From positions 124,001 through 188,000 of the forward strand of contig NZ_JAJHUO010000015.1 in assembly GCF_020859565.1 (NCBI RefSeq): a DNA stretch of 64,000 bases, written 5' to 3'. A program made the translations under genes and the position numbers. The notes below the pieces were generated by a model. That model was not told where the DNA came from, ran no database searches, and saw nothing but the letters and a program-made list of their open reading frames with translations. This document shows, piece by piece, positions 8,141 to 59,054 of this stretch. The DNA is from Saccharothrix luteola (GTDB lineage: Bacteria > Actinomycetota > Actinomycetes > Mycobacteriales > Pseudonocardiaceae). Position 1 is the first letter of the stretch. Each line of letters begins with the position of its first letter.

Positions 8141-8149
8141 GAGGTTGAC

Positions 8150-24674: not shown

Positions 24675-24795
24675 CCGATGTCGGAGCAGCCGGATCCGCC
24701 GCATGGTCGATGGGGAGTCGACGACGTCCCATTTCGCTCCACGAAACTGTTGCGACCTCGATTCCGGGTGAATACGACGACTGCTCGGAAGGTGC

Positions 24796-24824: not shown

Positions 24825-24846
24825 ATGCGGCGGCACTGTCCTCCGC

Positions 24847-26594: not shown

Positions 26595-26610
26595 GCCGTC
26601 CCGCTCAGCG
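26589..26610. terminator. Hairpin spanning both stop codons of convergent genes
   Basis: CGCTGAGC at 26589-26596 and GCTCAGCG at 26603-26610 form an 8-bp stem with a 6-nt loop. The TGA of the permease lies inside the left arm and the stop of the minus-strand SARP inside the right arm. It could act as a two-way terminator, although no T-run follows. Confidence 0.45.
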
Positions 26611-29600: not shown

Positions 29601-29742
29601 ACAGCCCGTCGACCAGCCGCCCGGCGCCGCAGCCGGCGCGCAGGTCGGCGGCGAGCAGGGCGAGGAGACCGCGCAGTCGCGGACCCGCGACCTCGTGGCC
29701 GCGGAAGGACACCCCGGACAGCAGGACGAGATCGGGGGTCAC
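26605..29742 (-). CDS. SARP/BTAD regulator with NB-ARC-type ATPase
   Basis: This 1045-residue protein has a winged helix (about 1-88), a BTAD domain (about 92-236), a STAND/NB-ARC ATPase with Walker A GPGGLGKT at 276-283 and VLDNCEHVVAG as Walker B, then a helical TPR-like C-terminus. The ATPase subtype (LDNCEH, TSRTPLGLSSE, LPLAVELAAARVR) is that of the LuxR/AfsR-like large regulators and differs from the two SARPs at 17-24 kb. The start is GTG 29742. It stands alone and converges with the ABC permease. Control of the transporter or the P450 is possible. Confidence 0.88.
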   Translation of the reverse strand: MTPDLVLLSGVSFRGHEVAGPRLRGLLALLAADLRAGCGAGRLVDGLWPDERPENPPKAVQILVSRARSRLGADVIVRTPTGYRLALTEDQVDSSALLLRAEDSARCSRAGDHAAALSHAAAGLALWNGDPGDDADPVTALRAERAAAHRALVRARALALARLGRPAEAAGPLAELVAARPRDEEVLVELLRCEAATVGPATALDRYDAYRRALREELGTDPGPSLRAEHRRLLQGVAPAVRHGVAHEPNTLLGRDEDIAAVQALLRTSRVTSIVGPGGLGKTRLAHAVARRAEASVVTVVPLAAVTTDDDVVHEVAMALGVGGQRTPGGHVTGGDVVAAIAAKLAGPYLLVLDNCEHVVAGVADLVRALVSLTAEPRVLTTSRTPLGLSSESVHQLPELCLATSVELFGHRARAARPGVDLPATAVAELCRHLDGLPLAVELAAARVRTMSVAEIARRLDDRFALLRGGARDSPRRHHTLHAVVDWSWNLLDPAGRVAMRALSVFTDGFTADAARVLLGGLPTTTPDVDVVLEHLVDHSLLKVSDTPSGTRLRMLETVREFSAARLEAAGEADDVTTAFLGWARAFGVAEHANLFDSDPYDTAAAVKAEQENLLQALRSALRRDDRPTVAAITAILGGMWSLESNYPRLTALIRQTSWPLSHYRPEPAFVEVTRTALTVAVAYAFGSGGPRSSRSVVALRRLGVAEPDTVVRAFGRVVAALGDRVELRRLCDSAEPLLAGVANAFVGYYREAVGDVDAALEAARLALDVFTGHDLPWPRSFGHGRVAEICLRSGRGAQARDHLLAALPLLQRLGARVDAVGVRAWLVLANLQLGDTAEAERWLDGLTQVALDEEETDSVGYDLGIRAEVRFARGEVEAGLRLWRRAVDRVGDAGLDPWAVQARSAAVVAHARHGRLDLVADVADALPGPLADLVARPLADPPPPAEQSLCGTLLVAVATADLARARQAGDPCLARSAARMFALAERFRFWCDFQPTMSPATIRADAERADRAAYDEAVSSYAALDRAGLRAAALDLVRERPVGR

Positions 29743-42700: not shown

Positions 42701-42838
42701 ATGCCCGAAGTCCCACTCCAGTCCACCACCCCTCCCCTGACCGGCGACGGCCACCGCGACGGTGACGCGACCGGGCGCCCGGCGTTCCGCGACGACCCCC
42801 GGGTGACGGCGCACGACGCCGTCGCCGGTGCGCCGTGA
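42701..42838 (+). CDS. 45-codon ORF coupled to flavin monooxygenase gene
   Basis: The peptide starts MPEVPLQSTTPPLTGDG and ends AHDAVAGAP. It is acidic to neutral and has no Cys. ATG 42701 follows AGGAG with 5-nt spacing, the best ribosome-binding site of the operon, and the stop overlaps the monooxygenase GTG (GTGA). This makes real translation likely. It could be a regulatory leader, a short carrier or subunit, or (less likely) a precursor peptide. Confidence 0.5.
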   Translation: MPEVPLQSTTPPLTGDGHRDGDATGRPAFRDDPRVTAHDAVAGAP

Positions 42839-44046
42839 GCGCCGAGCACGTGCCGGTCGCCGTGGTCGGCGCGGGGATCGGTGGCCTGGTCACCGCTCTG
42901 GCGTTGCGCCGCGCGGGGGTCCGGGTCGTGGTGTTCGAGCAGGCCGACGCGCTGAGCGAGGAAGGAGCGGGGCTGGCCCTCGGCGCGAACGGCACCCGGC
43001 CCCTGCTGCGGCTCGGCCTGGGCGCGGAGCTGCGGCGGATGGCCTTCCAACCGGGGCGCGTGGTGTTCCACCACTGGCGGACCGGCGCGGTGCGGCAGGC
43101 GCTGCCGCTGGGCCGCGACTACGAGGACCGCTTCGGCGCGCCGTTCTACACCTTCCACCGCGCGGACCTGCAACGGCTGCTGGCCGAGCGGTACCGCGAC
43201 GAGGGCGGCGAGCTGCGCACCGGGCACCGCTGCCTGGGCGTCACCCCGCTGGCCGACCGGGTCGTGGTCGAGTTCGGCGGTGACCGGCGGGTCGAGGCCG
43301 GGGTGGTGGTGGGTGCGGACGGCGTGCACTCCACGGTGCGGACGGACGTCGTGGGAGCCGATCGCGCCGTCTACTCGGGCAGATCGGGCTATCGCGGCCT
43401 GGTCGCGGCCGACCTGGTCGGCGACGCGGTCGACGACGCGCTGTCGTTCCACCTCGGACCTGCGAGGCACCTGGTCGCCTACCCGGTGCACGGCGGCGAC
43501 ACGGTGAACTTCCTCGCCGTGGTGCGCGACCCGAGGTGGACCCGGGAGTCGTGGGTGCGCCGCGGCCGGGTCGCCGACGTGCTGGCCGCGTTCGCCGGGT
43601 GGTCGCCCGCGGTCACCCGGATCGTCGGCGCGGCCGACGAGGTGTCGCACTGGGGCCTGTTCGACCGCGAGCCCGTCGACCGCTGGAGCCTGGACCGGGT
43701 GACGCTGGTCGGCGACGCCGCGCACCCGATGCTCCCGCACCACGGCCAGGGCGGGAACCAGGCGGTCGAGGACGCCGTGGTGCTGGCGGCCTGCCTGCGC
43801 ACGTGGCCGGACCGGCCCGCGCTGGCACTGGACCGCTACGAACGGGCCCGGCGCACCCGGACCCGCATGCTGCAACGGGGTTCGCGGAGCAACGGCGAGT
43901 GCTACCAGCTCCCCGACGGGCCCGCCGCCGACGAGCGGGACGCCAAGCTGAGCCGGCTGCCCGAAGACCTGGCCTGGATCCACGGCTACGACGCGGAGGC
44001 CGCGCTGGCGACCTCGGAGGAATCCCACCATGGCGAACTCGTCTGA
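42835..44046 (+). CDS. Class A FAD-dependent aromatic monooxygenase (salicylate hydroxylase-like)
   Basis: This 403-residue flavoprotein has GAGIGG at 12-17, the DG motif VVVGADGVHSTVR and the GD motif LVGDAAHPMLPHHGQGGNQAVEDA, which together define the para-hydroxybenzoate hydroxylase fold. It would use NAD(P)H and O2 to hydroxylate an aromatic acid or a similar ring. The start is GTG 42835, coupled to the small ORF. It overlaps by 17 nt the following DAHP-synthase-like gene, so the two act together. Substrate is unknown. Confidence 0.9.
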   Translation: MSAEHVPVAVVGAGIGGLVTALALRRAGVRVVVFEQADALSEEGAGLALGANGTRPLLRLGLGAELRRMAFQPGRVVFHHWRTGAVRQALPLGRDYEDRFGAPFYTFHRADLQRLLAERYRDEGGELRTGHRCLGVTPLADRVVVEFGGDRRVEAGVVVGADGVHSTVRTDVVGADRAVYSGRSGYRGLVAADLVGDAVDDALSFHLGPARHLVAYPVHGGDTVNFLAVVRDPRWTRESWVRRGRVADVLAAFAGWSPAVTRIVGAADEVSHWGLFDREPVDRWSLDRVTLVGDAAHPMLPHHGQGGNQAVEDAVVLAACLRTWPDRPALALDRYERARRTRTRMLQRGSRSNGECYQLPDGPAADERDAKLSRLPEDLAWIHGYDAEAALATSEESHHGELV

Positions 44047-45244
44047 GCCCGGCGGCACGGCCCCGACCGTCCACCCCCCGCCGCGGCGGGTCCAGCCGGA
44101 GGGCGCCACTGCTGACGCCACGCCCGAGGTCGTGCTCACGCCGCCGTCGCCGAGACAGGGCGGCACGCGCGAGTCCGACCAGGCCGCACAAGCCGAAGGG
44201 TCCGTCCTGTCCGCACGGTCCGGCTGGGCCGACGAACGGCACGTGCGCCCGGCACCGATCCGCACCCCGGCGCTCGTGCTGCCGCAGCAGTGCGACCGGC
44301 TCACCGCGGAAATCGGCCAGGTCGCCACCGGGCAGGCGCTGCTGCTGCACGGCGGCCCCGGCGCGCAGACCTCCGACGACGTCTCCGGGTACCGGTTCAC
44401 GCGCGAGCTGGCGCTCGTCCTCGGCCACGCCGCGTGCCTGCCCGTGGTCACCGTCGGCCGGGTCGTCACCGCAGGCCCGGACACCCGCCGCCGGTACCGC
44501 AACTCGGCCCGCTACCTGGACGCGCTGCGCGCCCTGGTGTCCGACCCGGCCACCGCCGACGCGGCGCGGGAATCGCTCGACCGACGCCTGGCCACGACGC
44601 CGGCCGCGGCACGCCACGCCGACGTCGTCGCCCTCGTGCGGTCACGGCTGGCGGGCCCGCACCCCGGCCCGCCTGACCTCTTCGTCAGCCACGAGACCGT
44701 CCCGCTGGACTACGAGTTCGCGCTTACCCGGACCGACCCGCGCACCGGACGCCGGTTCGGCACCTCCGGGCACCTGCTGTGGGTGGGCGACCGCAGCCGT
44801 GCGCACGTCGACTTCCTGGCCGGGATCGACAACCCGGTGGCGGTCGCGCTCGGCCCGGGCGCCACCGCCCGGGACGCGGCCGGGCTCGCCCGCAGGCTCA
44901 ACCCCGACCGCGTGCCCGGACGGCTGACGTTCATCACCCGTCTGGGTGCCGGGCAGGTGCGCGGGGTGCTGCCGCGGTTGCTCGACGCCGTCACCGACAC
45001 CGGAGTCCCGGTCGGCTGGGTGTGCGATCCCCTGCACGGCAACACCTTCACCGCCACCACCGGCGACCTCGACGACGTGGTGGCCGAGGTGCTGGCCTTC
45101 CACGACGCGCACCGGGCCGCCGGCACCCACGCCGGGGGCCTGCACGTGGACCTGGTCGACGACGTGTCGACCGACGGCCCGCGCCTCAACCGCGACCAGG
45201 CACTGGAACTGGCGCTGCGGACCGCCGAACGGTGCGCGCGGTGA
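44030..45244 (+). CDS. Divergent class II DAHP synthase homologue
   Basis: This 404-residue protein is clearly homologous to class II 3-deoxy-D-arabino-heptulosonate-7-phosphate synthase: SHETVPLDYE (220-229), HLLWVGDRSR, VCDPLHGNTF (331-340), and PRLNRDQALELALRTAE. It has lost key residues. The CAE motif at the first metal ligand (Cys87 in M. tuberculosis) reads GAQ (G111-Q113), the ligand Glu411 is Asp374, Asp441 is Gly383, and the PEP-binding Lys306 is Ala273. The N-terminal about 75 residues are Pro/Ala-rich, unlike the family. ATG 44030 has GGAGG at 44018-44022. It may catalyse a different aldol-type reaction, or be inactive. Confidence 0.82.
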   Translation: MANSSEPGGTAPTVHPPPRRVQPEGATADATPEVVLTPPSPRQGGTRESDQAAQAEGSVLSARSGWADERHVRPAPIRTPALVLPQQCDRLTAEIGQVATGQALLLHGGPGAQTSDDVSGYRFTRELALVLGHAACLPVVTVGRVVTAGPDTRRRYRNSARYLDALRALVSDPATADAARESLDRRLATTPAAARHADVVALVRSRLAGPHPGPPDLFVSHETVPLDYEFALTRTDPRTGRRFGTSGHLLWVGDRSRAHVDFLAGIDNPVAVALGPGATARDAAGLARRLNPDRVPGRLTFITRLGAGQVRGVLPRLLDAVTDTGVPVGWVCDPLHGNTFTATTGDLDDVVAEVLAFHDAHRAAGTHAGGLHVDLVDDVSTDGPRLNRDQALELALRTAERCAR

Positions 45245-47169: not shown

Positions 47170-47859
47170 GTGCAGGGCAACTCCAGATCCTGGCCGGCCA
47201 ACTGCTTCCGGTTGCTGCTGGTGGAGGACGACCGCGAGCTCGTGGAGTTGCTCGCCGCCGCGTTGCGCGACGAGGGGTACACCGTGGACGTTGCCCTGGA
47301 CGGGCAGCGCGGGCTGCACCTCGGCCTCACCCGCCCGTACGACGTGGTGGTGATCGACCGCGGCCTGCCCGCCCTCGACGGGCTCGACCTCCTCGTGCGG
47401 CTGAGGTCGAGGTCGGTGCGGACGCGGGCGTTGATCCTCACCGCCATGGGCACCGTCCACGACCGGATCGACGGTCTCGACGCGGGCGCGGACGACTACC
47501 TGGTGAAGCCGTTCGACCTGGACGAGTTGAGCGCGCGGCTGCGGGCGCTGTGCCGGCGGGCGCTGGAACTGGCCGACGTGCTGCGGATCGGCGGCGGGCA
47601 CCTCGACGTCGGACAGCGGGAGGCGGTGCTGCCCGACGGTGCGCGGGTGCCGCTCACCACCAGGGAATTCACCCTGCTGCGCGTGCTCGCCACCTATCCG
47701 GACACCGTGCACACGCGGGCGTCGTTGCGGCGCGTGGTGTTCCCGGACGCTTCGGCAACATCCATTGTGGACACCTACGTGTACTACCTGCGGTCCAAGA
47801 TCGACCGTTCGGTGGTGCACACGGTGCAAGGACTCGGGTATCGCTTGGGGGCGTTGTGA
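47170..47859 (+). CDS. OmpR-family response regulator
   Basis: This 229-residue protein has a receiver domain (about 12-128; acidic pair E19-D20-D21, phospho-acceptor D63 in DVVVIDRGLP, T91, K113 in DYLVKPFDL) and an OmpR/PhoB winged helix (about 140-226; LTTREFTLLRVLATYP, YYLRSKIDR, HTVQGLGYRL). It is coupled to the kinase (GTGA overlap). The start at GTG 47170 is uncertain within about 12 residues. The target genes are not clear. The tyrosine/phenylalanine-type ammonia-lyase gene lies at its operon's end. Confidence 0.9.
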   Translation: MQGNSRSWPANCFRLLLVEDDRELVELLAAALRDEGYTVDVALDGQRGLHLGLTRPYDVVVIDRGLPALDGLDLLVRLRSRSVRTRALILTAMGTVHDRIDGLDAGADDYLVKPFDLDELSARLRALCRRALELADVLRIGGGHLDVGQREAVLPDGARVPLTTREFTLLRVLATYPDTVHTRASLRRVVFPDASATSIVDTYVYYLRSKIDRSVVHTVQGLGYRLGAL

Positions 47860-49160
47860 GCCGTTCGTGGGCCGAGGCGGAGCGCGCGGTGATCCGGCGG
47901 GCTCGTCTGCGGATCAGCGTGCTGGTCGCGCTGGCGATCACCGTGCTGGTGGCGTTCGTCGGCGGTCTCGCGTACGCCATGATGGTGCACGCCCAGGATT
48001 CGCAGGTGACGCGCGAGCTGCGGTACAACGCCCGGTTCGGCGTGCCTTCGACGCCACCGGGGTGCACGTGGCTGTTCATCCTGGACGACGGCGTGCTCGA
48101 CGACGGCCTGCTGAAGGTGCCGCCGGGCTTCCCGCTGCGCGGGGACCTCGACGCGGTCGCGGCGTCCGGCGGGACCATCGAGCGCGAACTGGAGCTCAAC
48201 GGCACCGAGTACCTGACGCTGACCCAGCGCGGCGCCGACGGCAGCACGGTGCAGGCGGTCTTCGACACGCGCTACCAGCTCGCCGACCGGCGGCACCTGC
48301 TGGTGGCGCTGGCGATCGCGGAGATCGGCGGCCTGGTCGCGGCGGCGTTGCTGGGGCTGTGCGTCGGCCGCGGCACGGTCGCGCCGTTGGCGGAGGCGCT
48401 GGCCAGGCAACGGCGGTTCGTCACGGACGCCAGCCACGAGCTGCGGACGCCGATCGCGCGGGCGTACACGCGGGCGCAGCTGCTCGCCCGCTGGGCGAAG
48501 GCCGCCGACCTGCCCGACGACCACCGCGACGGCCTCGACAAGCTCGCCAGCTCGATCCGCGGGCTCGGCGACGTGGTGGACGACCTGCTGCTGTCGGCCA
48601 GGCTGACCCGCCGGCCCGAGGGCCTCGGCGGCCGGGCGGTCGACCTGGCGGCGCTGGCGGAGTCCGCGGTGGAGACCGAGAGCGACCGGGCGGGCGAACG
48701 GCGGATCACGCTGACCGTCGAACGCCCCACCGGCCCGCTGATCGTCATCGGGGTCGAGACCGCGCTGCGGCGCGCGGTGGACGAGCTGCTGGCGAACGCC
48801 GTCCGCCACACGCCGGAGGGTGGTCGGATCGACGTGCGCCTGGGGGTGCGGGGCGGGCAGGTCGAGCTGACGGTCGCGGACACCGGCGAGGGTTTCGACC
48901 CGGTGGAGGCGGACCGGCTGTTCGACCGGTTCCACCGCGGACCGGGCGAGCCGGAGCGGCGGTTCGGGCTGGGGCTGGCGCTGCTGCGCGAGGTGGTGAC
49001 CGGCCACGGCGGCACGGTGGAGGCCGTCGGCCACCCGGGCGAGGGCGCGCGGTTCACCCTGCGCTTACCCGTCGCCGACCCGACCGCCAGTGCCACCGCT
49101 GCCGCGACTGCGACTGCCGACGCCGTGACGGGCAAGGCGATCAGTACCGGCCCGCGGTGA
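47856..49160 (+). CDS. Two-component sensor histidine kinase
   Basis: This 434-residue protein has two transmembrane helices (about 20-44 and 149-170) around an about 100-residue sensor loop, then the H-box DASHELRTPIA (His194) without a clear HAMP, and a HATPase domain (DELLANAVRHTPEGG, DTGEGFDP, FGLGLALLREVVTGHGG). The 3' end overlaps the convergent ammonia-lyase gene by 20 nt. The last about 27 residues are Ala/Thr-rich. The signal is unknown. Confidence 0.9.
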   Translation: MSRSWAEAERAVIRRARLRISVLVALAITVLVAFVGGLAYAMMVHAQDSQVTRELRYNARFGVPSTPPGCTWLFILDDGVLDDGLLKVPPGFPLRGDLDAVAASGGTIERELELNGTEYLTLTQRGADGSTVQAVFDTRYQLADRRHLLVALAIAEIGGLVAAALLGLCVGRGTVAPLAEALARQRRFVTDASHELRTPIARAYTRAQLLARWAKAADLPDDHRDGLDKLASSIRGLGDVVDDLLLSARLTRRPEGLGGRAVDLAALAESAVETESDRAGERRITLTVERPTGPLIVIGVETALRRAVDELLANAVRHTPEGGRIDVRLGVRGGQVELTVADTGEGFDPVEADRLFDRFHRGPGEPERRFGLGLALLREVVTGHGGTVEAVGHPGEGARFTLRLPVADPTASATAAATATADAVTGKAISTGPR

Positions 49161-50637
49161 CGAGGTCGGCCGCCGCACGCACGTCCGCGTCGAGCGGTCG
49201 GTCGGGGTCCACCGGGGCGATCACGTCGCAGAGGGCGTCGAGCAGCGCGGCGCAGCGGGGCGCGGTCGGGCGGCGGCCGCCCACGTGCACCGCCTGCCGC
49301 AGGCCGAGCGCCAGTGAACCGCACAGCAGCCGGAGCAGTTCGGCGACGTCGTAGGAGCGCAGCGCGGCCTGGGTGCCGAACGGCACGACGTCCTGGTTGT
49401 GCAGGTTCGTCGGCAGGCTCTGCGTGCTCGCCGGCAAGACCGCGCGGCGGATCTCCGCGATGAACGCCGTCGTGGCCAGCTGCACGCCCTGCAACCCGTG
49501 CTGGCGTCCCGGCCCGGCGGCCAGCATCGGCGGCAGGCCCGTGTTGCGGACCGGGTCGACCAGCAGGTCCAGCTGCCGCTCCGCGAGGTTGCCCAACGAC
49601 GCCGTGACCATGGCGAGGACGTCGGCGGCGAACGCGGCCGGCTGGCCGAAGAAGTTGCCGCCGTGCGCGACGAGGTCGTCACCGGGGAAGAACAGCGGGT
49701 TGTCGCTGACACCGCCCAGGTCGGCCGCCACCACGCCGTCGACGTAGCGCAACGCGTCCTCGGCCGCGCCGAGCAGCTGCGGCGAGCACCGGAGGCTGTA
49801 AGGCTCCTGGAGGGCACGCTTGCCGCTCGGGATCGTGCCGACCAGGGTGGCCCGCATCCGCTCGGCGACGGTGGCCGCGCCGGGGTGCCCGTAGGCGGAG
49901 ATGAGGCGTGGGTCGAGGAAACCCGGGTCGGCGCCGAGGACGTCCACGAGCAGGCACGTCAGGTCCTGGATCGCCCGGTGCGAGGCACGCACGCTGTCCA
50001 ACGCGAGCGCGGCGGCCGCGGTGGTGACCGACGTGCCGTTGACGAGCGCCAGCGCGTCACGCCCGTCGAGGGTGAGCGAGGTCAGCCCGGCACGTCGCAG
50101 GGCGTCGTCGGCGGGCATCCGCTCACCGTCGAAGTAGGCGTGGCCACGGCCGCGCAACGCCTGGGTCGCGTAGGCGAGCGGGATGAGGTCGCCGCTCGCG
50201 CCGACCGAGCCGTAGCGCGGGATCGCCGGGGCGAACGTGGTCGCGAACATCGCCGCGAGCCCGTCCACGACGTGCGCGGAGACCCCCGAGAGGCCCTGGG
50301 CGAGCGACCACGCCCGCACGAGCAGCGCGGCGCGGGCGATGTCGGCCGGCAGGTCCGGCCCCTGGCCCGCGCCGAGGTGTGCCAGGGTGTTGTCGCACTG
50401 GTCCGCTTCGTCCTCACGGCCCGCGAAGCCGACCAGGGCGCCGAACCCGGTCTTGGCGCCGTAGACGGGCCGCTCGTCGTCGGCGAGCACGGTGCGCAGG
50501 TACTCGCGGCCCCGGTCGACCCGCTCCCGGACGGGCGGGCTGACGAGCACGGGCAACGGCGCTGCCGCACGGTGGAGGTGGTCGCTCGTCAGCGGTGCGC
50601 CGAGGTCCACGGGTGCGTCGGTCACGGTCGTGGTCAC
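49141..50637 (-). CDS. MIO-type aromatic amino acid ammonia-lyase
   Basis: This 498-residue protein belongs to the HAL/PAL/TAL family. The MIO-forming triad Ala147-Ser148-Gly149 lies in RYGSVGASGDLIPLAY, and the catalytic Tyr59 in VYGAKTGFG. At the substrate-selectivity pair (His89-Leu90 in Rhodobacter TAL) it has His87-Leu88 in NTLAHLGAGQG, favouring tyrosine over phenylalanine, so the product may be 4-coumarate. Some relatives are aminomutases that make beta-tyrosine, and this cannot be excluded. It diverges from the flavoprotein operon across a 32-bp palindrome, so the two sets are probably co-regulated. Confidence 0.88.
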   Translation of the reverse strand: MTTTVTDAPVDLGAPLTSDHLHRAAAPLPVLVSPPVRERVDRGREYLRTVLADDERPVYGAKTGFGALVGFAGREDEADQCDNTLAHLGAGQGPDLPADIARAALLVRAWSLAQGLSGVSAHVVDGLAAMFATTFAPAIPRYGSVGASGDLIPLAYATQALRGRGHAYFDGERMPADDALRRAGLTSLTLDGRDALALVNGTSVTTAAAALALDSVRASHRAIQDLTCLLVDVLGADPGFLDPRLISAYGHPGAATVAERMRATLVGTIPSGKRALQEPYSLRCSPQLLGAAEDALRYVDGVVAADLGGVSDNPLFFPGDDLVAHGGNFFGQPAAFAADVLAMVTASLGNLAERQLDLLVDPVRNTGLPPMLAAGPGRQHGLQGVQLATTAFIAEIRRAVLPASTQSLPTNLHNQDVVPFGTQAALRSYDVAELLRLLCGSLALGLRQAVHVGGRRPTAPRCAALLDALCDVIAPVDPDRPLDADVRAAADLVTAGRY

Positions 50638-50652
50638 CGCACCGACGGTAGG

Positions 50653-50684
50653 CAGTCGATCTCAGAGAGTTCTGAGATCGACTG
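50653..50684. promoter_or_regulatory. Perfect 32-bp inverted repeat between ammonia-lyase and flavoprotein operon
   Basis: Arms of 14 bp (CAGTCGATCTCAGA at 50653-50666 and its exact complement at 50671-50684) flank GAGT. It occupies half of the 63-bp gap between the two divergent start codons, so a bound dimer would block both promoters. The ATG of the flavoprotein is 16 bp away, hence leaderless or short-leader messages. MarR- or TetR-like proteins bind sites like this. No such gene is adjacent. Confidence 0.75.
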
Positions 50685-50700
50685 CGTAGCTTCCTGGCTC

Positions 50701-52251
50701 ATGGCGCACGACTACCTGATCATCGGGGCGGGACCGGCCGGTGTGCAGCTCGCCGCCCTGCTGGAGCGCGACGGTCGCGACTACGCCGTCCTCGAACGCG
50801 GCACCGCACCGGGCACCTTCTTCACCCGCTACCCGCGGCACCGGACCCTGATCTCCATCAACAAGGTGCACACCGGGTACTCCGACCCGGAGCAGCGGCT
50901 GCGGATGGACTGGAACTCGCTGCTGACCGACGATCCCGAGCTGCTGTTCACCCGCTACAGCCGCCGCTACTTCCCCGACGCCGACGACCTGGTCCGCTAC
51001 CTGGCCGACTTCGCCGCGGCCACCGGCGTCCGGGTCCACTACGACACCGAGGTCGTGCGGATCTCCCGTGACGACGAGGGCTTCACCGTGCTCGACCGCG
51101 GTGGGCGGACGTGGCGCGCCGCGCGGGTCGTGGTGGCGACCGGTGTTTCGCAACTCCACGTGCCGCCGATCCCGGGCATCGAGCACGCCGAGCGCTACGA
51201 CACGTTCGACACCGACCCGGAGTCGTTCACCGACCAGCGGGTGCTGGTGATCGGCAAGGGCAACTCCGGGTTCGAGACCGCGGACGCTCTGGTGGAGCAC
51301 GCGGCGGTCATCCACGTGGCCGGCCCGCACTCGGTGCGGCTCGCGTGGCAGACGCACTACGTCGGCCACTTGCGCGCGGTGAACAACAACTTCCTCGACA
51401 CCTACCAGCTCAAGTCGGAGAACGCGGTCATCGACGGCACGGTGGAGCTCATCGAGCCGCGGGCCGGCGGCGGTTTCCGCGTCCGGTTCCGCTACGCCCG
51501 CGCGGCGGAGTCGTCGCGGGAGGTGGAGTACGACCGGATCGTGGCGTGCACCGGGTTCCGGTTCGACGCCTCGGTGTTCGACGACAGCTGCCGCCCGGCG
51601 CTGGTGATCGACGACCGGTTCCCCGAGCAGACACCCGCGTTCGAGTCGACCACGGTGCCGGGCCTGTACTTCGCGGGCACCATCACGCAGTCCAGGGACT
51701 TCAAGAAGTCCACCAGCGGGTTCATCCACGGCTTCCGGTACGGGGTCCGCGCCCTGCACCGCGTCCTCGCCGCCCGCCACCACGACACGCCGTGGCCGTC
51801 GACGGAGCTGGAGCCGTCGCCGGAGGCGATCAGCGACGCGGTGGTGGCCAGGGTGAACCGGTCGTCCGCGCTGTGGCAGCAGTTCGCGGTGATCGGCGAC
51901 GTCGTCACGGTCTCCGACGGCGCCGCGCGGTACCAGGAAGAGGTGCCGGTGGCCTACGTCGCCGACGGCGGCCTGGGCCCGGCCGAGCACCGGTTCGTCG
52001 CGACGCTGGAGTACGGGCCCGACCACGACAAGGTGGACCCGTTCGACATCACCGTCCCGCGCGTGGTGGAGAACGACGCGGCCAACGCGCACGACGCGAG
52101 CTACCTGCACCCGGTGGTGCGCCACTACCGCGACGGCACGCTCGACGCGACCCACCACCTGGCCGAGAACCTCGAGAACCAGTGGGACCTGCCCGCGGTG
52201 CACCAGCAGCCGCTGGTCGCGTTCGTGAAGGAATGCCTTGCCGGCGCGTGA
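50701..52251 (+). CDS. FAD/NAD(P)-dependent flavoprotein (paralogue 1; FOXRED2-like family)
   Basis: This 516-residue protein has two Rossmann motifs: GAGPAG at 9-14 for FAD and VLVIGKGNSGFETADAL at about 181-197 for NAD(P). The conserved block FFTRYPRHRTLISINKVHTG follows the FAD site, and CTGFRFDASVF plus YFAGTITQSRDFKKSTSGFIHGFRYG lies near the C-terminal half. It resembles group B flavin monooxygenases and the FOXRED2 family. Reaction is unknown: N- or C-hydroxylation of an amino acid or amine is plausible. It is the first gene of a six-gene operon. The ligase start overlaps its 3' end by 14 nt. Confidence 0.85.
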   Translation: MAHDYLIIGAGPAGVQLAALLERDGRDYAVLERGTAPGTFFTRYPRHRTLISINKVHTGYSDPEQRLRMDWNSLLTDDPELLFTRYSRRYFPDADDLVRYLADFAAATGVRVHYDTEVVRISRDDEGFTVLDRGGRTWRAARVVVATGVSQLHVPPIPGIEHAERYDTFDTDPESFTDQRVLVIGKGNSGFETADALVEHAAVIHVAGPHSVRLAWQTHYVGHLRAVNNNFLDTYQLKSENAVIDGTVELIEPRAGGGFRVRFRYARAAESSREVEYDRIVACTGFRFDASVFDDSCRPALVIDDRFPEQTPAFESTTVPGLYFAGTITQSRDFKKSTSGFIHGFRYGVRALHRVLAARHHDTPWPSTELEPSPEAISDAVVARVNRSSALWQQFAVIGDVVTVSDGAARYQEEVPVAYVADGGLGPAEHRFVATLEYGPDHDKVDPFDITVPRVVENDAANAHDASYLHPVVRHYRDGTLDATHHLAENLENQWDLPAVHQQPLVAFVKECLAGA

Positions 52252-53707
52252 GGCCGAGCCGTTCCCGCGCGCGGTGCTCGACGTGCTCGAGACCGCCGGG
52301 GGCCGGCCGGTGTTCGAACACGGCACGCGCGTGGTGACCGGCGCGGAGATGCTCGACCTCGTCTCGCGGATCGCCGCCGGTTTGCGCGGGCGAGGTCTGG
52401 GTCCGGGTGACGGCGTCGCGCTCCTGCTCGGCGTCAACCCGGAGGCGTTCGCCACGATCCTCGCCGCGCACGCGGTGGGCGCGAGGGTGCTGGGCGTGCG
52501 GCCGGGCCTGCCCGACGACCAGGTGCGCCACCTGCTCGGCCTCGACGTCGCCGCGGTGATCACCGACTCGGACGACACGATCGCGCCCGAATCGGGGACC
52601 CCCGTGCTGACCGTCGACTCGTTGCGCGAGACCCGTGCCGACGGTCGGCTCCGGTGCGCCGGCCGGCCCTCGGACGTCGCCCGGCTGATCCACACCAGCG
52701 GCAGCACGGGCGCGCCCAAGGCCTGCGCGCAGACCTACGCCGCGATGACCTCCGCGTGGACCGCCCGACCGGACGCGTGGCCGCCCGCGATCCGCGAGCT
52801 GGCCTCCCGGCTGGACCGCTTCCTGGTGTTCGGGTCGCTGTCGAGCCAGGTGATGTTCGAGTACGCGGTCGTGGCGATCACCGCCGGCGGCACGGCGGTC
52901 GTCGCCGACCGGCCCGTGTTCCCCGAGGCGATCACCCGCCACCGGGCTTCGGCGAGCGTGTTCACCGTGCCGCGGTTGACGAAGCTCGTCGCCGCGCAGC
53001 GCCGCGCACCGGCCGACCTGTCGTCGTTGCGGGCGCTGATGGTGTCCGGATCGCCGCTGACGGCCGACCGGCACCGCGAGGCGCTGGACGTGCTCGGGCC
53101 GGTCGTGTTCCAGGGCTACGGCCAGACCGAGACGGGCATGATCTCGATGGCGACCCCGGCCGACCCGCCCGGCACGGTGGGGATACCGCCCGCCGCCGTG
53201 CACGTCGAGGTCCGTGACGCGGACGGCGCACCCGTGCCGCCAGAGGTCGACGGGGAGCTGTTCGTCCGCACGCCGGCGCAGGCCGGCGCGTACTGGGCGG
53301 ACCCGGAGCGGTCGGCCGAGGTGTTCGCCGACGGCCTGGTGCGCACCCGCGACCTCGGCCACCTCGACGCCGACGGCCACCTGCACCTGACCGGCCGGAC
53401 CAGGGACGTGGTGATCGTCAACGCGAACCTGCACTACGTGGGCCCGATCGAGCGGGTCGTCGCCGAGCACCCGGACGTCGCCGAGGCGTACGTGGTCGCC
53501 GTGCCGGACGAGGACACCGGCGAGGCGGTGCACGCGTTCGTCGTGCCGACCGCAGACCGCGCGCCCGACCTCGCGGCCCTGCGCGCGCTGGTGACCGACC
53601 GGCTGGGCGCCGCGTGCGCGCCGGTGGCCGTGACCGTGATCGAAGAACCGCCGCTCGCACCGAGCGGCAAGCCGGACAAGCGCCTGCTGTCCCCCACCCG
53701 GACGTGA
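52238..53707 (+). CDS. ANL-superfamily acyl-adenylating ligase
   Basis: This 489-residue AMP-forming ligase has P-loop LIHTSGSTGAPKA (about 150-162), the A5 motif GYGQTETGM, A7 RTRDLG, A8 GRTRDVVIVNANLHYVGPIERV and the catalytic Lys region PLAPSGKPDKRLL (A10). It starts at TTG 52238 with AAGGA upstream, overlapping the preceding flavoprotein gene. It would activate an acid as an acyl-AMP for CoA, amine or amino-acid transfer. No carrier protein is encoded nearby. A cinnamate-type acid from the neighbouring lyase is a reasonable, unproven substrate. Confidence 0.87.
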   Translation: MPAREAEPFPRAVLDVLETAGGRPVFEHGTRVVTGAEMLDLVSRIAAGLRGRGLGPGDGVALLLGVNPEAFATILAAHAVGARVLGVRPGLPDDQVRHLLGLDVAAVITDSDDTIAPESGTPVLTVDSLRETRADGRLRCAGRPSDVARLIHTSGSTGAPKACAQTYAAMTSAWTARPDAWPPAIRELASRLDRFLVFGSLSSQVMFEYAVVAITAGGTAVVADRPVFPEAITRHRASASVFTVPRLTKLVAAQRRAPADLSSLRALMVSGSPLTADRHREALDVLGPVVFQGYGQTETGMISMATPADPPGTVGIPPAAVHVEVRDADGAPVPPEVDGELFVRTPAQAGAYWADPERSAEVFADGLVRTRDLGHLDADGHLHLTGRTRDVVIVNANLHYVGPIERVVAEHPDVAEAYVVAVPDEDTGEAVHAFVVPTADRAPDLAALRALVTDRLGAACAPVAVTVIEEPPLAPSGKPDKRLLSPTRT

Positions 53708-53717
53708 GGAGAAAGAC

Positions 53718-55301
53718 GTGCCCAGCGAGGTTTCCACGGAGTGTCTCGTGATCGGCGCCGGCCCGGCGGGGCTCCAGGCGTCCTACCTGCTGTCCCGCGC
53801 CGGGCGGGACCACCTGGTGCTGGAGGCCGGTGACGCCCCCGGCGCGTTCTTCACCCGCTTCCCCCGCCACCGCACCCTGATCTCGATCAACAAGCCGAAC
53901 ACCGGGTGGGACGACCCCGAGCTCAACCTGCGCACCGACTGGAACTCGCTGCTGTCCGACGACCCGTCGCTGCTGTTCACCGGCTACACGCCGCGCTACT
54001 TCCCGCACGCCGACGACATGGTCCGCTACCTGGCCGACTTCGCCGCCGCGCACGACCTGCCGATCCGCTACGGCGCGTCGGTGGTCGAGGTGACCAGGCC
54101 GGACGACTTCGTGGTGCGCGACCGCAACGGCGACACCTACCGGGCACGTCGGCTCATCGTGGCCACCGGTGTGTCCAAGTCGTACGTGGCGCCGATCGAG
54201 GGGGCGGAGCTCGCCGAGCGGTACGACGAGGTGTCGGTGGACCCCGCCGACTTCACCGGACAGAGGGTGCTGATCGTCGGTCGCGGCAACTCGGCGTTCG
54301 AGACCGCCGACAACCTGATCGAGACCGCGTCGGTCATCCACGTCGCCGGGCCCGGCTCGCTGAAGCTGGCGTGGCAGACGCACTTCGTCGGCCACCTGCG
54401 CGCGGTCAACAACAACTTCCTCGACACCTACCAGCTCAAGTCGCAGAACGCGCTGCTGGACGGCCGGGTGCTGGACATCCGCCGCGACGGCGACGGTTTC
54501 CTGGTGCGGGTCGCCTTCGTGCGGGTCGCCGAGCGGGTCAAGGAGATCCGCTACGACCGGGTGATCATGGCGACCGGGTTCCGGTTCGACGCGTCGATCT
54601 TCGCGCCCGAGTGCCGTCCCCGGCTCACGATCAACGACCGCTTCCCGGACCAGACCGCCGCCTGGGAGTCGGTGAACGTGCCCGACCTGTTCTTCGCCGG
54701 CACCATCACGCAGGCCAGGGACTTCAAGAAGTCGACGAGCGGGTTCATCCACGGCTTCCGGTACGGGGTGCGGGCGCTGCACCACATCATGGAGCACCGC
54801 TACCACGGGGTCGCGTGGCCGAGCCGGGACCTCTCCCCCACCCCCGACGCGGTGGCCGACGCGGTCATCGAGCGGGTGAACCGCACCTCGGCGTTGTGGC
54901 AGCTGTTCGCGTTCATGGCGGACGCGGTGCTGGTCGGGTCGGACGGCGCGCTGCGCTACGCCGAGGAGGTGCCGCTGGCCCACCTGCACGAGGCGGTCGG
55001 CCGCGGCGACTTCGGCGACGTCGAGTCCTACCTGGCGGTGACGCTGGAGTACGGCGCGGACCACGACCAGGTCAACCCGTTCGACGTCACGGCGGGCCGG
55101 GTGTCCCAAGAGGACACCAGCGGGCTCGACGGCCGCTACCTGCACCCGGTGGTCCGGCACTTCCGCGGTGGGACGTTGCTCGACGAGCACCACCTCACCG
55201 AGAACCTCGAGAACGAGTGGGACAGCGAGGACGTGCACCGGGCGCCGCTGCTGGCGTTCCTGCACGCCCGGCTGGACCGGACCGCCGTGGGTTCACCGTG
55301 A
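53718..55301 (+). CDS. FAD/NAD(P)-dependent flavoprotein (paralogue 2; FOXRED2-like family)
   Basis: This 527-residue protein is closely similar to the paralogue at 50701 along its full length (for example FFTRFPRHRTLISINKPNTGW and DWNSLLSDDPSLLFT, against FFTRYPRHRTLISINKVHTGY and DWNSLLTDDPELLFT). It keeps both nucleotide-binding motifs (GAGPAG, VLIVGRGNSAFETADNL). GTG 53718 has GAGGAG at 53706-53711. The pair flanking the ligase suggests duplication followed by a split of function, e.g. two oxidations on one scaffold or a heterodimer. Confidence 0.85.
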   Translation: MPSEVSTECLVIGAGPAGLQASYLLSRAGRDHLVLEAGDAPGAFFTRFPRHRTLISINKPNTGWDDPELNLRTDWNSLLSDDPSLLFTGYTPRYFPHADDMVRYLADFAAAHDLPIRYGASVVEVTRPDDFVVRDRNGDTYRARRLIVATGVSKSYVAPIEGAELAERYDEVSVDPADFTGQRVLIVGRGNSAFETADNLIETASVIHVAGPGSLKLAWQTHFVGHLRAVNNNFLDTYQLKSQNALLDGRVLDIRRDGDGFLVRVAFVRVAERVKEIRYDRVIMATGFRFDASIFAPECRPRLTINDRFPDQTAAWESVNVPDLFFAGTITQARDFKKSTSGFIHGFRYGVRALHHIMEHRYHGVAWPSRDLSPTPDAVADAVIERVNRTSALWQLFAFMADAVLVGSDGALRYAEEVPLAHLHEAVGRGDFGDVESYLAVTLEYGADHDQVNPFDVTAGRVSQEDTSGLDGRYLHPVVRHFRGGTLLDEHHLTENLENEWDSEDVHRAPLLAFLHARLDRTAVGSP

Positions 55302-56389
55302 GCAGCGGGCTCGCGCGGTTGCACGAGCAGGCCCGCGCGGTGCTCGACCCCGTGCACTACGACTACTACGCGGGCGGGGTCGGCGACGAGGTGGTGCTCG
55401 GGGAGAACGAGGCGGCGTTCGGCCGCCTGGCCCTGCTGCCGAGGGTGCTGCGCGGGCGGGCGACCCGGGACCTCGGGGTCGACCTGCCCGGCGGTCGCCT
55501 CGCCCTGCCGGTGCTGATCGCGCCGACCGCGTTCCACCGGCTCGCGCACCCGGACGGTGAGCTGGCGACCGCGCGGGCCGCGGCGGCGGCGCGGACGGTG
55601 CTGGTGTCCGGGATGGCCTCGACGGTGGCGATCGGCGAGGTGGCGGCGGCGGCGCGGTCGGTCGACGCGGACGCGTCCGTCTGGTTCCAGCTCTACCTGC
55701 AACCCGACGACGACGTGACGGACTGCCTGGTGCACCGGGCGGAACGGGCCGGCTGCACGGCGCTGGTGGTGACCGCCGACTCCCCGGTGTTCGGCCGGCA
55801 CCGCCGCGACGCCGAGCACGGCTTCCACGACCTGCCCGCCGGGCTGGCGGCGGAGAACATGCGCGACCTGCCCGGTGGCCCGCCGGGCGGCGTGCGGGAC
55901 ATCGAGATGTCGCCGTCGGTGTCGTGGGCGCACCTGGACCGGCTGCGGGAGCTGACGTCGTTGCCGTTGTGGCTCAAGGGCGTGCTCCACCCGCGCGACG
56001 CGGTGCTCGCGGTCGAGCACGGGGTGGCCGGGATCGTGGTGTCCAACCACGGTGGCCGCCAGTCCGACCTCGCGCCGGCGGCGGTCGAGGCGTTGCCCGC
56101 GGTGGTCGACGCGGTGGCGGGCCGGGTGCCGGTGGTGCTGGACGGCGGTGTCCGGCGCGGCGGTGACGTGGCCGTGGCGCTCGCGCTGGGCGCGTCGGCG
56201 GTGGGTGTCGGCAGGCCGGTGCTGTGGGGTCTGGCCGCGGCCGGCGAGGCCGGCGTGTCCCGGGTGCTCGACGTGCTGCGCGACGAGTTCGACCACGTCC
56301 TCGCGCTGTGCGGCGGGCGTGACCTGACCGACCTGACCCGGGACCTGGTGGTCGCGCGCGGGACGGGGGTGTCCGCGCGGTGTGGGTGA
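55298..56389 (+). CDS. FMN-dependent alpha-hydroxy acid oxidase/dehydrogenase
   Basis: This 363-residue TIM-barrel flavoenzyme starts at GTG 55298 in a GTGA overlap. Catalytic residues fit the glycolate/lactate/mandelate oxidase family: Tyr24 in YDYYAGG, WFQLYLQ, the Lys of LKGVL, His251 and Arg254 in SNHGGRQ, and the FMN phosphate site VVLDGGVRRGGDVAVALALGASAVGVGRPVLWG. It oxidises an L-2-hydroxy acid to a 2-oxo acid. Within this operon it may act on an aryl hydroxy acid such as a mandelate- or phenyllactate-type intermediate. Confidence 0.9.
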   Translation: MSSGLARLHEQARAVLDPVHYDYYAGGVGDEVVLGENEAAFGRLALLPRVLRGRATRDLGVDLPGGRLALPVLIAPTAFHRLAHPDGELATARAAAAARTVLVSGMASTVAIGEVAAAARSVDADASVWFQLYLQPDDDVTDCLVHRAERAGCTALVVTADSPVFGRHRRDAEHGFHDLPAGLAAENMRDLPGGPPGGVRDIEMSPSVSWAHLDRLRELTSLPLWLKGVLHPRDAVLAVEHGVAGIVVSNHGGRQSDLAPAAVEALPAVVDAVAGRVPVVLDGGVRRGGDVAVALALGASAVGVGRPVLWGLAAAGEAGVSRVLDVLRDEFDHVLALCGGRDLTDLTRDLVVARGTGVSARCG

Positions 56390-57771
56390 CCGGGCTGCTC
56401 GCCGCCGCGGTCGTGCTGACCGCGCCGCGCTGGCTGCCGGCGCGGGTGGTCGCTCTGCGCGCCAAGGTGTTCGAGAAGGTCAACGGGGACAACGCGGTGA
56501 TGTTCCCCAACGCCGCCGTCGGGCCGGACCGGTTCCAGGAGGTCTACAGCCACCCCGCCGCGAACGGCCGCAGCCGCGGCGCCGGGCTGTCGGACCTGTT
56601 CTGGTACTGGCTCTCCCCCGGACCCGAGGTGCACCAAGAGCACCTGGAGGCCGGCCCGCGCTACGAGGACGTGGCCCGCACCACGCGCGCGCTGCTGGCC
56701 GGGCCGGGTGACGTGCTGTCGGCGACGGCGGCCCGCTGCACCGGCCGGGTGCTCGACGAGGTGCTCACCGGGCGGGTCACGCTGGTGCGGCTGCGCGACC
56801 TGATGATGCCGGTGTGGGCGGAGTACTTCTACGAGCTGGTGTTCGGCGAGCCGTGCCCCCGCGAGGCGCGTGACCTGATCGTGGGGCACGCCGACGACGT
56901 GGTGACGTCGTTGAAGTGCACGGGGCTGCGCCACCCGGCCCGGCGGGCGCGGCTGACCCGCTACCTGGCCCGGCGGGTCGCGGCGGGCGACGTGCGGCGG
57001 CCGTTGCCGGCGAGCCTGTCGCCCACCGAGCAGGTGCACTACCTCCAGGGCACGTTCTTCAACACGGGCGTGGTCCAGATGTCCGAGGCGATGGCGCACC
57101 TGCTGCTCGCGCTGGCGCAGCACCCGCGCGTGGCGGCCCGGCTCGCGGCCGACGAGAGCTACTTCACCCACGTCCTGGACGAGACCATGCGGCTCTACCC
57201 GCTGTTCGGCATCGCGCACCGCGTCACCACCGGGGACATCGAGCTGGACGAGCGCACCACGCTGCCCGCGGGTTCGGTGCTGTGCTTCAGCTATCCCGAC
57301 TACCACGCCACCGGCCACGCGCGCCCGGAGGTGTTCGACCCGGACCGCTGGGAGGAGGTCCGGGTCCGCACGGCGCACCACATCCCGTTCGGCGTCGCCG
57401 CCAACCGGCCGTGCCCGGCGTGGCGGTTGTCCCCGCTGGCGCTGCGCGGCGCGACCGGCGAGGTGCTGCGCCGCGTGACGCCGCACTCGACGGTCAGGCA
57501 CACCCGGTCGTTGCCCAGCCGCGGCCCGTGCCTGCTGGTCCGGGCCGACCAACCGCTGCCGCCGCGCCGCCTCGCCGTGCTCGGCGCGTTCCTGCGGGTG
57601 CGGGACCGGTGGGAGGACGTGTGGCGCAGCGTCGTCCAGCTCGTGCTCGGCACGGTCATGGTCCTGCACGCCCACCGGCTGCGGTTGGCCGGGCGCTACT
57701 TCGACACGCACGACACCCAGGGTCGTCCGCTGCGGCGAGAGCCGCCTTCCACCCAGGAGATCACCGAGTGA
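56380..57771 (+). CDS. Membrane-anchored atypical cytochrome P450
   Basis: This 463-residue protein overlaps the oxidase gene by 10 nt. It has an N-terminal hydrophobic anchor (residues 1-16, VWVTGLLAAAVVLTAP), ExxR as E268-TMR, and a heme loop IPFGVAANRPCPAW with the thiolate at C345. The I-helix motif AGx(D/E)T is replaced by GTFFNTGVVQ (about 224-233), so the usual acid-alcohol pair for O2 activation is missing. About 118 residues follow the Cys, longer than normal. It may use a peroxide or carry out a dehydration or rearrangement. Confidence 0.78.
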   Translation: MWVTGLLAAAVVLTAPRWLPARVVALRAKVFEKVNGDNAVMFPNAAVGPDRFQEVYSHPAANGRSRGAGLSDLFWYWLSPGPEVHQEHLEAGPRYEDVARTTRALLAGPGDVLSATAARCTGRVLDEVLTGRVTLVRLRDLMMPVWAEYFYELVFGEPCPREARDLIVGHADDVVTSLKCTGLRHPARRARLTRYLARRVAAGDVRRPLPASLSPTEQVHYLQGTFFNTGVVQMSEAMAHLLLALAQHPRVAARLAADESYFTHVLDETMRLYPLFGIAHRVTTGDIELDERTTLPAGSVLCFSYPDYHATGHARPEVFDPDRWEEVRVRTAHHIPFGVAANRPCPAWRLSPLALRGATGEVLRRVTPHSTVRHTRSLPSRGPCLLVRADQPLPPRRLAVLGAFLRVRDRWEDVWRSVVQLVLGTVMVLHAHRLRLAGRYFDTHDTQGRPLRREPPSTQEITE

Positions 57772-59054
57772 ACCAGATCCAGTTCGCGTTGAAGGTGTTC
57801 GCCGCGCTCGCGGTCGTGCTCGCCGCGACCACGTTGTGCGGGCGCATCGCCATGGCGGTCAAGCAGCCCAGAGTGGTCGGCGAGATGGTCGCCGGCGTCC
57901 TGCTCGGGCCGGCCCTGCTGGGCGCCGTGGCGCCGGGGGTGCAGGCCCAGCTCTTCCCCACGGACGTCAAGGACACCCTGTACGTGCTGAGCACGATCGG
58001 GTTGACCTTCTACATGTTCCTGGTCGGGTCCTCGCTCGACCACGGCCTGGCCGCCGGGCGGAACATGCGGCGGGCGTCGGCGCTCGCGGTGTCGGGCATC
58101 GTGCCGACGTTCGCGCTGGGCGCGGCCGTGGCGGCGCTGTTCTTCGGCTCGCTGAGCCCGGACGGCACGACCCGGTGGGAGTTCATGCTCTTCGTCGGCG
58201 GCGCGCTGTCGATCACCGCGTTCCCGATGCTGGCGCGGATCCTCCAGGAGCGCGGGATCGCGAACACGCCCATCGGCGGCCTCACGCTGGTCGCGGCGGC
58301 GATCGACGACGCGGCGGCGTGGGTGATCCTGGCGGTGATCATCGCGGTCGCGGCGGCGGGCAGCCCGTTCGACGCGGTGGGCACGGTGGCGGGCGCGGCG
58401 GTGTTCGCGCTGCTGATGCTCACGGTGGGGCGCAACCTGTTCGCCCGGCTGGGCGCGCGGGTGGAGCGCGAGGGCCGGATGAGCCGCGACGTGATGGCGG
58501 TCGTGCTGCTCGTCGTCCTGCTGGCGGGGTGGTTCACCGACTACATCGGCGTGTTCTCCGTGTTCGGCGGGTTCATCACGGGCTTGGCGATGCCGCAGTC
58601 GGCGATCGTGCGCCGGGAGCTGGAGACCCGGCTCACGGACTTGAACTCCATCCTGCTGCTGCCGGTGTTCTTCGCGTTCAGCGGGTTGAACACGCAGGTG
58701 TCCGGCTTCGGCGCGGGCGGCGGCCTGTGGTGGCCGCTCGCGGTGATCATGGCGGTCGCGTTCGCGGGCAAGTACCTCGGCTGCGCGGTGGTGGTGCGCG
58801 CCCAGGGCTTCTCGTGGCGCTACGCGTCGGCGGTCGGCGGGCTGATGAACGCGCGTGGGCTGATGATCCTGATCTTCATCAACATCGGCCTGGCGCACGA
58901 CATGGTGACCCCGGAGTTGTTCGCGATCCTCGTCGCGGTCGCGATCGTGACCACGGCCGCCGCGATGCCGATCTACCGGGCGTCCCTGCCCGAGAGCCTG
59001 GAGCGCGGCGCGACCGACTTCATACCGCCCGCGGTGCCCGCGTCGAACAACTGA
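57768..59054 (+). CDS. CPA2-family cation:proton antiporter (KefB-like membrane domain)
   Basis: This 428-residue membrane protein has about 11-12 transmembrane helices. CPA2 motifs seen are QPRVVGEMVAGVLLGPALLG, FVGGALSITAFPMLARIL and AAIDDAAAWVIL, the last two with the paired ion-binding acidic residues typical of Na+/H+ exchangers. There is no TrkA-N or UspA domain. GTG 57768 overlaps the P450 stop (GTGA), with CAGGAG 11 bases upstream. As the last operon gene it may export the product or protect against pH or ion stress caused by it. Confidence 0.88.
   Translation: MNQIQFALKVFAALAVVLAATTLCGRIAMAVKQPRVVGEMVAGVLLGPALLGAVAPGVQAQLFPTDVKDTLYVLSTIGLTFYMFLVGSSLDHGLAAGRNMRRASALAVSGIVPTFALGAAVAALFFGSLSPDGTTRWEFMLFVGGALSITAFPMLARILQERGIANTPIGGLTLVAAAIDDAAAWVILAVIIAVAAAGSPFDAVGTVAGAAVFALLMLTVGRNLFARLGARVEREGRMSRDVMAVVLLVVLLAGWFTDYIGVFSVFGGFITGLAMPQSAIVRRELETRLTDLNSILLLPVFFAFSGLNTQVSGFGAGGGLWWPLAVIMAVAFAGKYLGCAVVVRAQGFSWRYASAVGGLMNARGLMILIFINIGLAHDMVTPELFAILVAVAIVTTAAAMPIYRASLPESLERGATDFIPPAVPASNN

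Follow-up and report, generated by a model that had tools for sequence, protein, structure and literature searches.

Bacterial tyrosine ammonia-lyases of the MIO type are represented by the solved structure 2o6y, which we take to be RsTAL, and by BagA/FevW of bagremycin and ferroverdin. Among adenylating enzymes of the ANL family, McbA and ShABS work as stand-alone enzymes without a carrier protein, and E400 and Y402 are amine-tunnel residues of McbA (PMC10804368). P450 peroxygenases have been combined with an α-hydroxyacid oxidase in an engineered cascade (PMC7814890). Here, we describe a gene cluster of the soil actinobacterium Saccharothrix luteola in which related enzymes are encoded side by side. 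It lies in a stretch of 64,000 nucleotides of contig NZ_JAJHUO010000015.1 (forward strand, positions 124,001 to 188,000), called the window below and numbered from its first letter. The cluster is composed of two modules. Module A contains an OmpR-type response regulator (RR), a sensor histidine kinase (HK), an MIO ammonia-lyase (MIO), a flavoprotein (FOXa), and an adenylating ligase (LIG). Module B contains a second flavoprotein (FOXb), an FMN-dependent L-2-hydroxyacid oxidase (FMN), a cytochrome P450 (P450), and a cation/proton antiporter (CPA2). It is probable that the two form a specialized-metabolite cluster under its own two-component system.

MIO shares the fold, the Ala-Ser-Gly triad, the His-Leu pair, and the carboxylate-binding Arg with 2o6y and BagA/FevW; it differs from the latter by falling outside that family by score and by being paired with FOXa and a two-component system. 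Like McbA and ShABS (PMC10804368), LIG would be a stand-alone ANL adenylation enzyme that needs no carrier protein. The A8 motif of McbA/ShABS reads IVEAY.., whereas LIG has IVNAN.., and amide formation by LIG is putative. FMN belongs to the same L-2-hydroxyacid oxidase family as 4-hydroxymandelate oxidase (Hmo, 5zzp), and as a single domain it is nearer to plant glycolate oxidase (284 bits) than to Hmo (223 bits). The engineered cascade of PMC7814890 uses the same two enzyme classes that are encoded here by overlapping neighbor genes; that cascade is artificial, converts fatty acids, and relies on other P450s, and the peroxygenase role is putative here. Among the matches listed from the open-licence PMC literature, we found no described cluster with this gene set, and a characterized match elsewhere is possible. 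The first-pass annotation of the window had proposed an uncharacterized pathway without polyketide synthase, nonribosomal peptide synthetase, or carrier-protein genes. This looks real, and the pathway is widespread and conserved in actinobacteria and apparently undescribed.

Gene Content and Modularity

The seven genes from MIO to CPA2 were supported by codon-position GC and by a codon-usage gene caller, and their families were assigned with Pfam. MIO (49141..50637, minus strand, start GTG 50637; PF00221, 430 bits) diverges from FOXa (50701..52251, plus strand, start ATG 50701; PF13738, an FAD/NAD(P)-binding flavoprotein) across a spacer of 63 nt. The remaining genes follow FOXa on the plus strand: the amide-bond-synthetase-like LIG (52238..53707, TTG start; PF00501/PF13193), FOXb (from 53718 or 53748 to 55301; FAD/NAD(P)-binding by Pfam), FMN (55298..56389; PF01070, 385 bits), the atypical P450 with its N-terminal helix (56380..57771; PF00067), and CPA2 (57768..59054; PF00999 above and TIGR00932 below its cut-off). 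Given the TTG start of LIG, FOXa and LIG overlap by 14 nt; the overlaps are 4 nt for FOXb/FMN, 10 nt for FMN/P450, and 4 nt for P450/CPA2, and a gap of 10 nt separates LIG from FOXb.

RR (47170..47859; PF00072 and PF00486) and HK (47889..49160; PF00512 and PF02518) lie on the plus strand on the other side of MIO. HK and MIO share 20 nt at their 3′ ends, in tail-to-tail orientation, and HK is kept with RR and MIO in relatives. RR homologues were found in five loci of the genus; there they adjoin the cluster and show 80–96% identity. Because it overlaps the MIO tail and recurs in relatives, the RR/HK pair (47170–49160) is part of the cluster. The seven genes of the first-pass annotation stood with their families and overlaps, and its list had missed the paralogy of the two FOX genes, the RR/HK pair, and the palindromic, probably regulatory MIO/FOXa spacer.

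For comparison, we mapped 102 loci: the window, 20 from further genomes, one Nonomuraea record, and the best 80 of 335 places encoding the P450 in a scan of GTDB contigs. The counts below are not independent, because some genomes are represented by two loci and contig ends truncate part of the loci; they are also uncorrected for relatedness. With the gene caller, a simple codon-usage script, neither L082 nor L129 received a P450 call, and L183 received no gene call of any kind. Gene families were grouped by single-linkage BLAST, so the RR and HK groups may include paralogues.

The cluster is the union of module A and module B, as follows from the FOX and LIG trees, the separate loci, and the co-occurrence across genomes. 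FOXa forms a single clade of 54 rows in the FOX tree (SH-aLRT 100). Its members sit in MIO loci, except for those of L107 and L123, where the contig starts right next to the cluster. Two FOX genes were called in 51 of the 59 MIO loci and one in the other eight. In the LIG tree, 28 rows from MIO-less loci form a clade that includes neither the LIG of MIO loci nor that of stand-alone module A, and four rows labeled MIO-less fall outside this clade. Two genomes of the same genus (G150 and G083) carry RR-HK-MIO-FOXa-LIG alone at about 5.12 Mb, with a perfect copy of the control site described below, and LIG-FOXb-FMN-P450-CPA2 with its own LIG at about 4.74 Mb, which places the modules about 380 kb apart. 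MIO was found at ≥70% identity in 22 of 397 genomes of the order. All 22 also contain the P450, and 21 contain FOXa at ≥70% identity, the exception being G248. The lyase is not in an invariant core. Together with FOXa, LIG, and the two-component genes, it makes up a module that can be separated from the rest, and FOXb-FMN-P450 often occurs without it.

The separate loci of G150 and G083, with their separate LIG copies, raise the question of whether modules A and B make two products and are merely co-regulated neighbors. The frequent occurrence of module B without module A fits this explanation as well. It would, however, have to accommodate the finding that MIO loci never had more than one called LIG (one in 55/59, none in 4/59), and that no LIG of the MIO loci lies inside the clade of 28. 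Moreover, where the cluster is rearranged in Streptomyces, the control site has been retained at the FOXb operon as well as at the split FOXa-LIG operon. We therefore regard two separate products as doubtful.

The joint cluster and its core are widely distributed, and many relatives have the cluster in a rearranged form. Within the order, 35 of the 397 genomes had the P450; in a sample of 396 genomes covering the phylum, it was present in 6, two of which lie outside the class. A P450 gene was called in 100 of the 102 loci, and in 97 of these it is immediately preceded by FMN in the same orientation. These two genes overlap by 4–10 nt in 73 of the 97 loci, and FOX directly precedes FMN in 91 of them. 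MIO was called in 59 and LIG in 89 of the 102 loci, some of the MIO-less ones being cut by contig ends. The first-pass annotation had named the lack of this gene order in other genomes as a reason to abandon its proposal; the gene order recurs in Pseudonocardiaceae, Streptomycetaceae, Nocardiaceae, Streptosporangiaceae, and further families of the order and the phylum, which speaks against a chance arrangement.

Variants of the locus were also seen. L131 and L043 have the FOX-FMN-P450 core without LIG or MIO, and behind it lie genes for a DUF6282 protein and for an aldehyde dehydrogenase (Pfam was run on L131 only). In L131, the two-component genes are retained, and the site is present at two mismatches. 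Four Nonomuraea loci (L054, L126, L133, and L134) have a sulfotransferase-family gene divergent from LIG (PF17784, Pfam run on L133 only). The family assignment suggests a sulfated variant of the product.

Control Site

The spacer between MIO and FOXa holds a palindrome of 34 bp (50652..50685). Within it lies an operator-like core, ATCTCAGA-N4-TCTGAGAT (50659..50678), which is conserved in relatives. On the FOXa side, a predicted –10 element, TAGCTT (50687..50692, plus strand), ends 8 nt before ATG 50701; on the MIO side, the predicted element TACCGT (50645..50650, minus strand) ends 7 nt before GTG 50637. Both would belong to leaderless promoters. Allowing ≤3 mismatches, the succession of half-site, 8 nt, TANNNT, 6–8 nt, and ATG/GTG was found in the relatives at 80 of the 85 sites on the FOX side and at 56 of the 57 on the MIO side (exceptions: L044, L045, L046, L050, L131, and L118). 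This spacing suggests that the two promoters are divergent and leaderless and that an activator site covers both –35 regions. In those Streptomyces loci in which the FOXa-LIG pair has been moved or turned, the pair has its own site with the identical layout.

The core site occurs once in the Saccharothrix luteola genome (10.3 Mb in 59 contigs) at ≤2 mismatches, and the reversed-pattern control gave no match. At ≤1 mismatch, it was detected in 17 of the 397 genomes of the order. All eight perfect sites in these genomes lie at the cluster or at module-A genes, as do five of the ten one-mismatch sites. Beside the off-cluster one-mismatch sites (G111, G223, G239, G240, and a second G358 contig), no MIO, FOX, FMN, or P450 was called, and we set these sites aside.

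The presence of the site follows that of the two-component genes. Among 87 loci with full flanks, it was found at ≤2 mismatches in 55 of the 63 loci with a two-component gene and in none of the 24 without (Fisher p 6e-15, uncorrected for duplicates and relatedness). The other 15 loci were excluded, 13 of them for short flanks (including the right side of the window) and two for lack of a P450 call. The eight two-component loci without the site are L044–L049, L054, and L133. We infer that the palindrome is the binding site of RR, and the cluster apparently is controlled from one common DNA site.

Lyase, Flavoproteins, and Ligase

The MIO-forming residues Ala147-Ser148-Gly149 are kept in all 59 cluster homologues of the lyase, as is the His87-Leu88 pair, which aligned with His-Leu of 2o6y. 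We take this pair to be a determinant of tyrosine selectivity. The scores of MIO were below the NCBIfam cut-offs for HutH (TIGR01225, 347 vs. 539 bits) and BagA/FevW (NF041222, 235.5 vs. 1000 bits). For ten distant MIO homologues of the order with 56–63% identity, we compared the gene neighborhoods in the regions with called genes. O-methyltransferase and AMP-ligase families recur there. In L172 (7984–10061), the gene for an MIO paralogue overlaps that of a phenolic acid decarboxylase, a pair that is possibly a 4-vinylphenol unit. This overlap points to p-coumarate as the lyase product. A homologue of the decarboxylase was also observed near MIO in L173 (12820–13326). MIO is most likely a tyrosine ammonia-lyase, judging from its aligned residues and the paralogue's neighbor, and tyrosine, which the first-pass annotation had put forward, gains weight as the likely substrate.

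Alternatively, MIO might be an aminomutase making β-tyrosine, which FOXa would N-oxidize next. Tyrosine 2,3-aminomutase (TIGR03832) is indeed among the NCBIfam matches of MIO, though far under its cut-off (267 vs. 501 bits), and aminomutases presumably have the same Tyr-binding His. However, 2o6y outscores the aminomutases among solved structures (235 vs. 207 bits). The paralogue that overlaps the decarboxylase gene is 64% identical to a cluster MIO, and its neighbor is an enzyme expected to use coumarate. We thus consider an aminomutase quite unlikely.

FOXa and FOXb are paralogues with 62% identity. Each has a pair of Rossmann motifs, as well as the FAD/NAD(P)H fold found in class B flavin monooxygenases and N-hydroxylases; they may also be similar to the eukaryotic FOXRED2. 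The FOX model had a predicted local distance difference test (pLDDT) score of 75.6. Its top structural matches were YpdA and flavin monooxygenases, followed by N-hydroxylases and thioredoxin reductases. The likeness to N-hydroxylases, flavin monooxygenases, and YpdA spans residues 1–408 of the model, and the C-terminal part is scarcely covered.

Distant FOX homologues (44–48% identity) were found at 21 places. We examined six of these regions and called genes in five of them (L178, 8575–13242, and L179–L182), where nitroreductase, GCS2 carboxylate-amine ligase, and M20 peptidase were the three common neighbor families; Pfam was run on L178 only. These loci represent another conserved cluster with FOX, distinct from the one described here.

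Among PDB entries, LIG matched 6sq8 (208 bits) and 6h1b (204 bits) best, both of which we take to be the amide bond synthetase McbA. The catalytic Lys478 is kept in 88 of 88 sequences. By these criteria, LIG resembles the amide-bond synthetases. It also matches 8wev, named a feruloyl-CoA synthetase, and benzoate-CoA ligases. An ordinary aryl- or acyl-CoA ligase would imply a CoA-derived ester, amide, or degradation intermediate as the product, and FOXa and FOXb could then be reductases, for example for the P450. Their fold, which resembles YpdA, thioredoxin reductase, and ferredoxin-NADP reductases, would permit this. However, 6sq8 and 6h1b stand 37–41 bits clear of the next matches, and no acyltransferase or β-oxidation family was noticed among the recurrent gene families, only part of which were run against Pfam. 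A CoA ligase is accordingly a tentative assignment, on which we would place little confidence.

Oxidase, P450, and Transporter

The catalytic residues of FMN, Asp161, Lys227, His251, and Arg254, are kept in 97 of 97 sequences. Residues 23 and 133 presumably correspond to the two active-site Tyr of glycolate oxidase. Both are Tyr in the window; across the 97 rows, Tyr133 is present in 90 and Tyr23 in 59. We considered a link between residue 23 and the presence of MIO and rejected it, as the counts were 36 Tyr and 22 Phe with MIO and 23 Tyr and 15 Phe without. The top PDB entry was 7f22, whose 381 bits are the sum over two fused lactate-oxidase domains of 191 bits each.

In the P450, Glu268 and Arg271 of the ExxR motif and the heme ligand Cys345 are kept in 98 of 98 sequences. 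The acid–alcohol pair of the I-helix is replaced by Val232-Gln233 in all 98, the register being taken from one alignment to CYP3A4. This agrees with the first-pass annotation, which had called the P450 atypical. The model (pLDDT 82.9) showed a generic P450 fold with an N-terminal helix. We rejected membership in CYP152: its entries tied with steroid and bacterial P450s in the structure matches, and the replacing residues are Val-Gln rather than the Arg-Pro that CYP152 carries at this place. In 100 loci, a crude motif scan of short open reading frames up to 8 kb from the P450 gave no convincing ferredoxin partner; its one match appeared to be spurious.

These features allow a sharper form of the favored explanation, not its negation. 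Module B may be an H2O2-recycling couple, in which a peroxygenase-type P450 α-hydroxylates an acid, and FMN turns the α-hydroxyacid into the ketoacid and supplies the P450 with H2O2 in return. No redox partner would then be required. The invariable loss of the acid–alcohol pair, the position of FMN immediately 5′ of the P450 with the frequent short overlap, the intact catalytic residues of FMN, and the outcome of the ferredoxin scan are all consistent with this, and the engineered cascade (PMC7814890) follows the same logic. Against it stand the Val-Gln residues, which are not those of CYP152, and the generic P450 model, for which CYP152 entries tied with many others. The ferredoxin scan was crude, and many actinobacterial P450s rely on ferredoxins encoded elsewhere. 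P450s acting on N–O or peroxide substrates can also lose the acid–alcohol pair. We consider peroxide recycling a rather doubtful option.

The place after the P450 is held in 12 loci by an MFS transporter (PF07690, family f12) rather than by CPA2. This replacement supports an exporter role for the antiporter, and with it the export of the product proposed in the first-pass annotation. CPA2 is likely to serve in efflux or tolerance, given its family and position.

Other Genes in the Window

An FAD_binding_3 monooxygenase gene overlaps that of a class-II DAHP synthase at 42835–45244 and may be a small aromatic precursor unit. We rejected this pair as part of the cluster: it had no match in the 16 kb beside the G290 cluster, and the other compared loci were too short. 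The window also contains contractile injection-system genes at 2568–13296 (phage tail sheath, a baseplate hub with a VgrG-like OB domain, and baseplate J), together with an AAA ATPase at 263–2341. Two large SARP-like regulators with BTAD domains, of 1130 and 1045 aa, are encoded at 20931–29742.

Proposed Pathway

Sequence analysis shows which genes are present, how they are conserved and divided into modules, the pattern of the control site, and the catalytic residues; the chemical steps are a proposal. HK would sense a signal, and RR would then bind to the palindrome and regulate the two divergent promoters. MIO would very probably deaminate L-tyrosine to p-coumarate. LIG may adenylate an aromatic acid, probably coumarate, and transfer it to an amine or another nucleophile without a carrier protein. 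With its flavin monooxygenase/N-hydroxylase/YpdA fold, FOXa might conceivably oxygenate a nitrogen-containing partner. Module B would oxidize the skeleton further: FOXb by chemistry like that of FOXa, the P450 by oxidizing or rearranging a substrate, and FMN by converting an α-hydroxyacid to an α-ketoacid and H2O2. The antiporter, or the MFS pump in other loci, would move the product or confer tolerance to it. Of the tyrosine-derived, several times oxidized product in the first-pass annotation, tyrosine remains as the likely substrate. The product as a whole can be proposed for the combined cluster only, since the lyase sits in a separable module.

Several observations weigh against the specialized-metabolite reading or parts of it. 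L048 and L049 contain MIO and RR/HK, yet they lack the site at ≤2 mismatches; L049 has a form of it with a 5-nt spacer. Of the eight MIO loci with one called FOX, L122, L128, and L132 seem to lack FOXa; in the others, it may be masked by contig ends or by the gene calling. FOXb-FMN-P450 exists without MIO or LIG in some loci, and therefore the modules need not make one product. The structural neighbors of FOX include reductases as well as monooxygenases, so the fold is compatible with an oxygenase or a reductase and N-oxygenation is putative; moreover, pLDDT was <50 for 85 of the 517 modeled residues. In FMN, 7 of the 97 sequences have a residue other than Tyr at position 133, and 37 have Phe at position 23. 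LIG has Asn395 and Asn397 instead of the Glu/Tyr of the McbA amine tunnel (PMC10804368). The duplicate genomes and uncorrected relatedness also bear on all of the locus counts.

The sensor kinase, the antiporter, and the oxidative enzymes would also suit a catabolic or detoxification operon for plant-derived phenolics. The lyase, however, acts on an amino acid, and no ring-cleavage family was found among the conserved cluster genes run against Pfam. A catabolic role is thus very unlikely, and we retain the specialized-metabolite cluster as the probable reading. Its most far-reaching version is an unlikely one. Module B would then be a natural, translationally coupled H2O2-recycling couple whose peroxygenase-type P450s form a new lineage outside CYP152. 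One dedicated two-component system would control it together with a tyrosine ammonia-lyase/amide-synthetase module, and the two modules would give a new class of carrier-protein-free phenylpropanoids in actinobacteria.

Conclusions

The core of the cluster is a strongly conserved flavoprotein/oxidase/P450 trio, in which the P450 lacks the oxygen-activating pair. The palindrome, with its fixed promoter spacing, offers a sequence handle on the timing of cluster expression and makes the cluster easy to search for and to switch on. Should the oxidase indeed feed peroxide to the P450, nature would be using a cascade known to us only as an engineered one.

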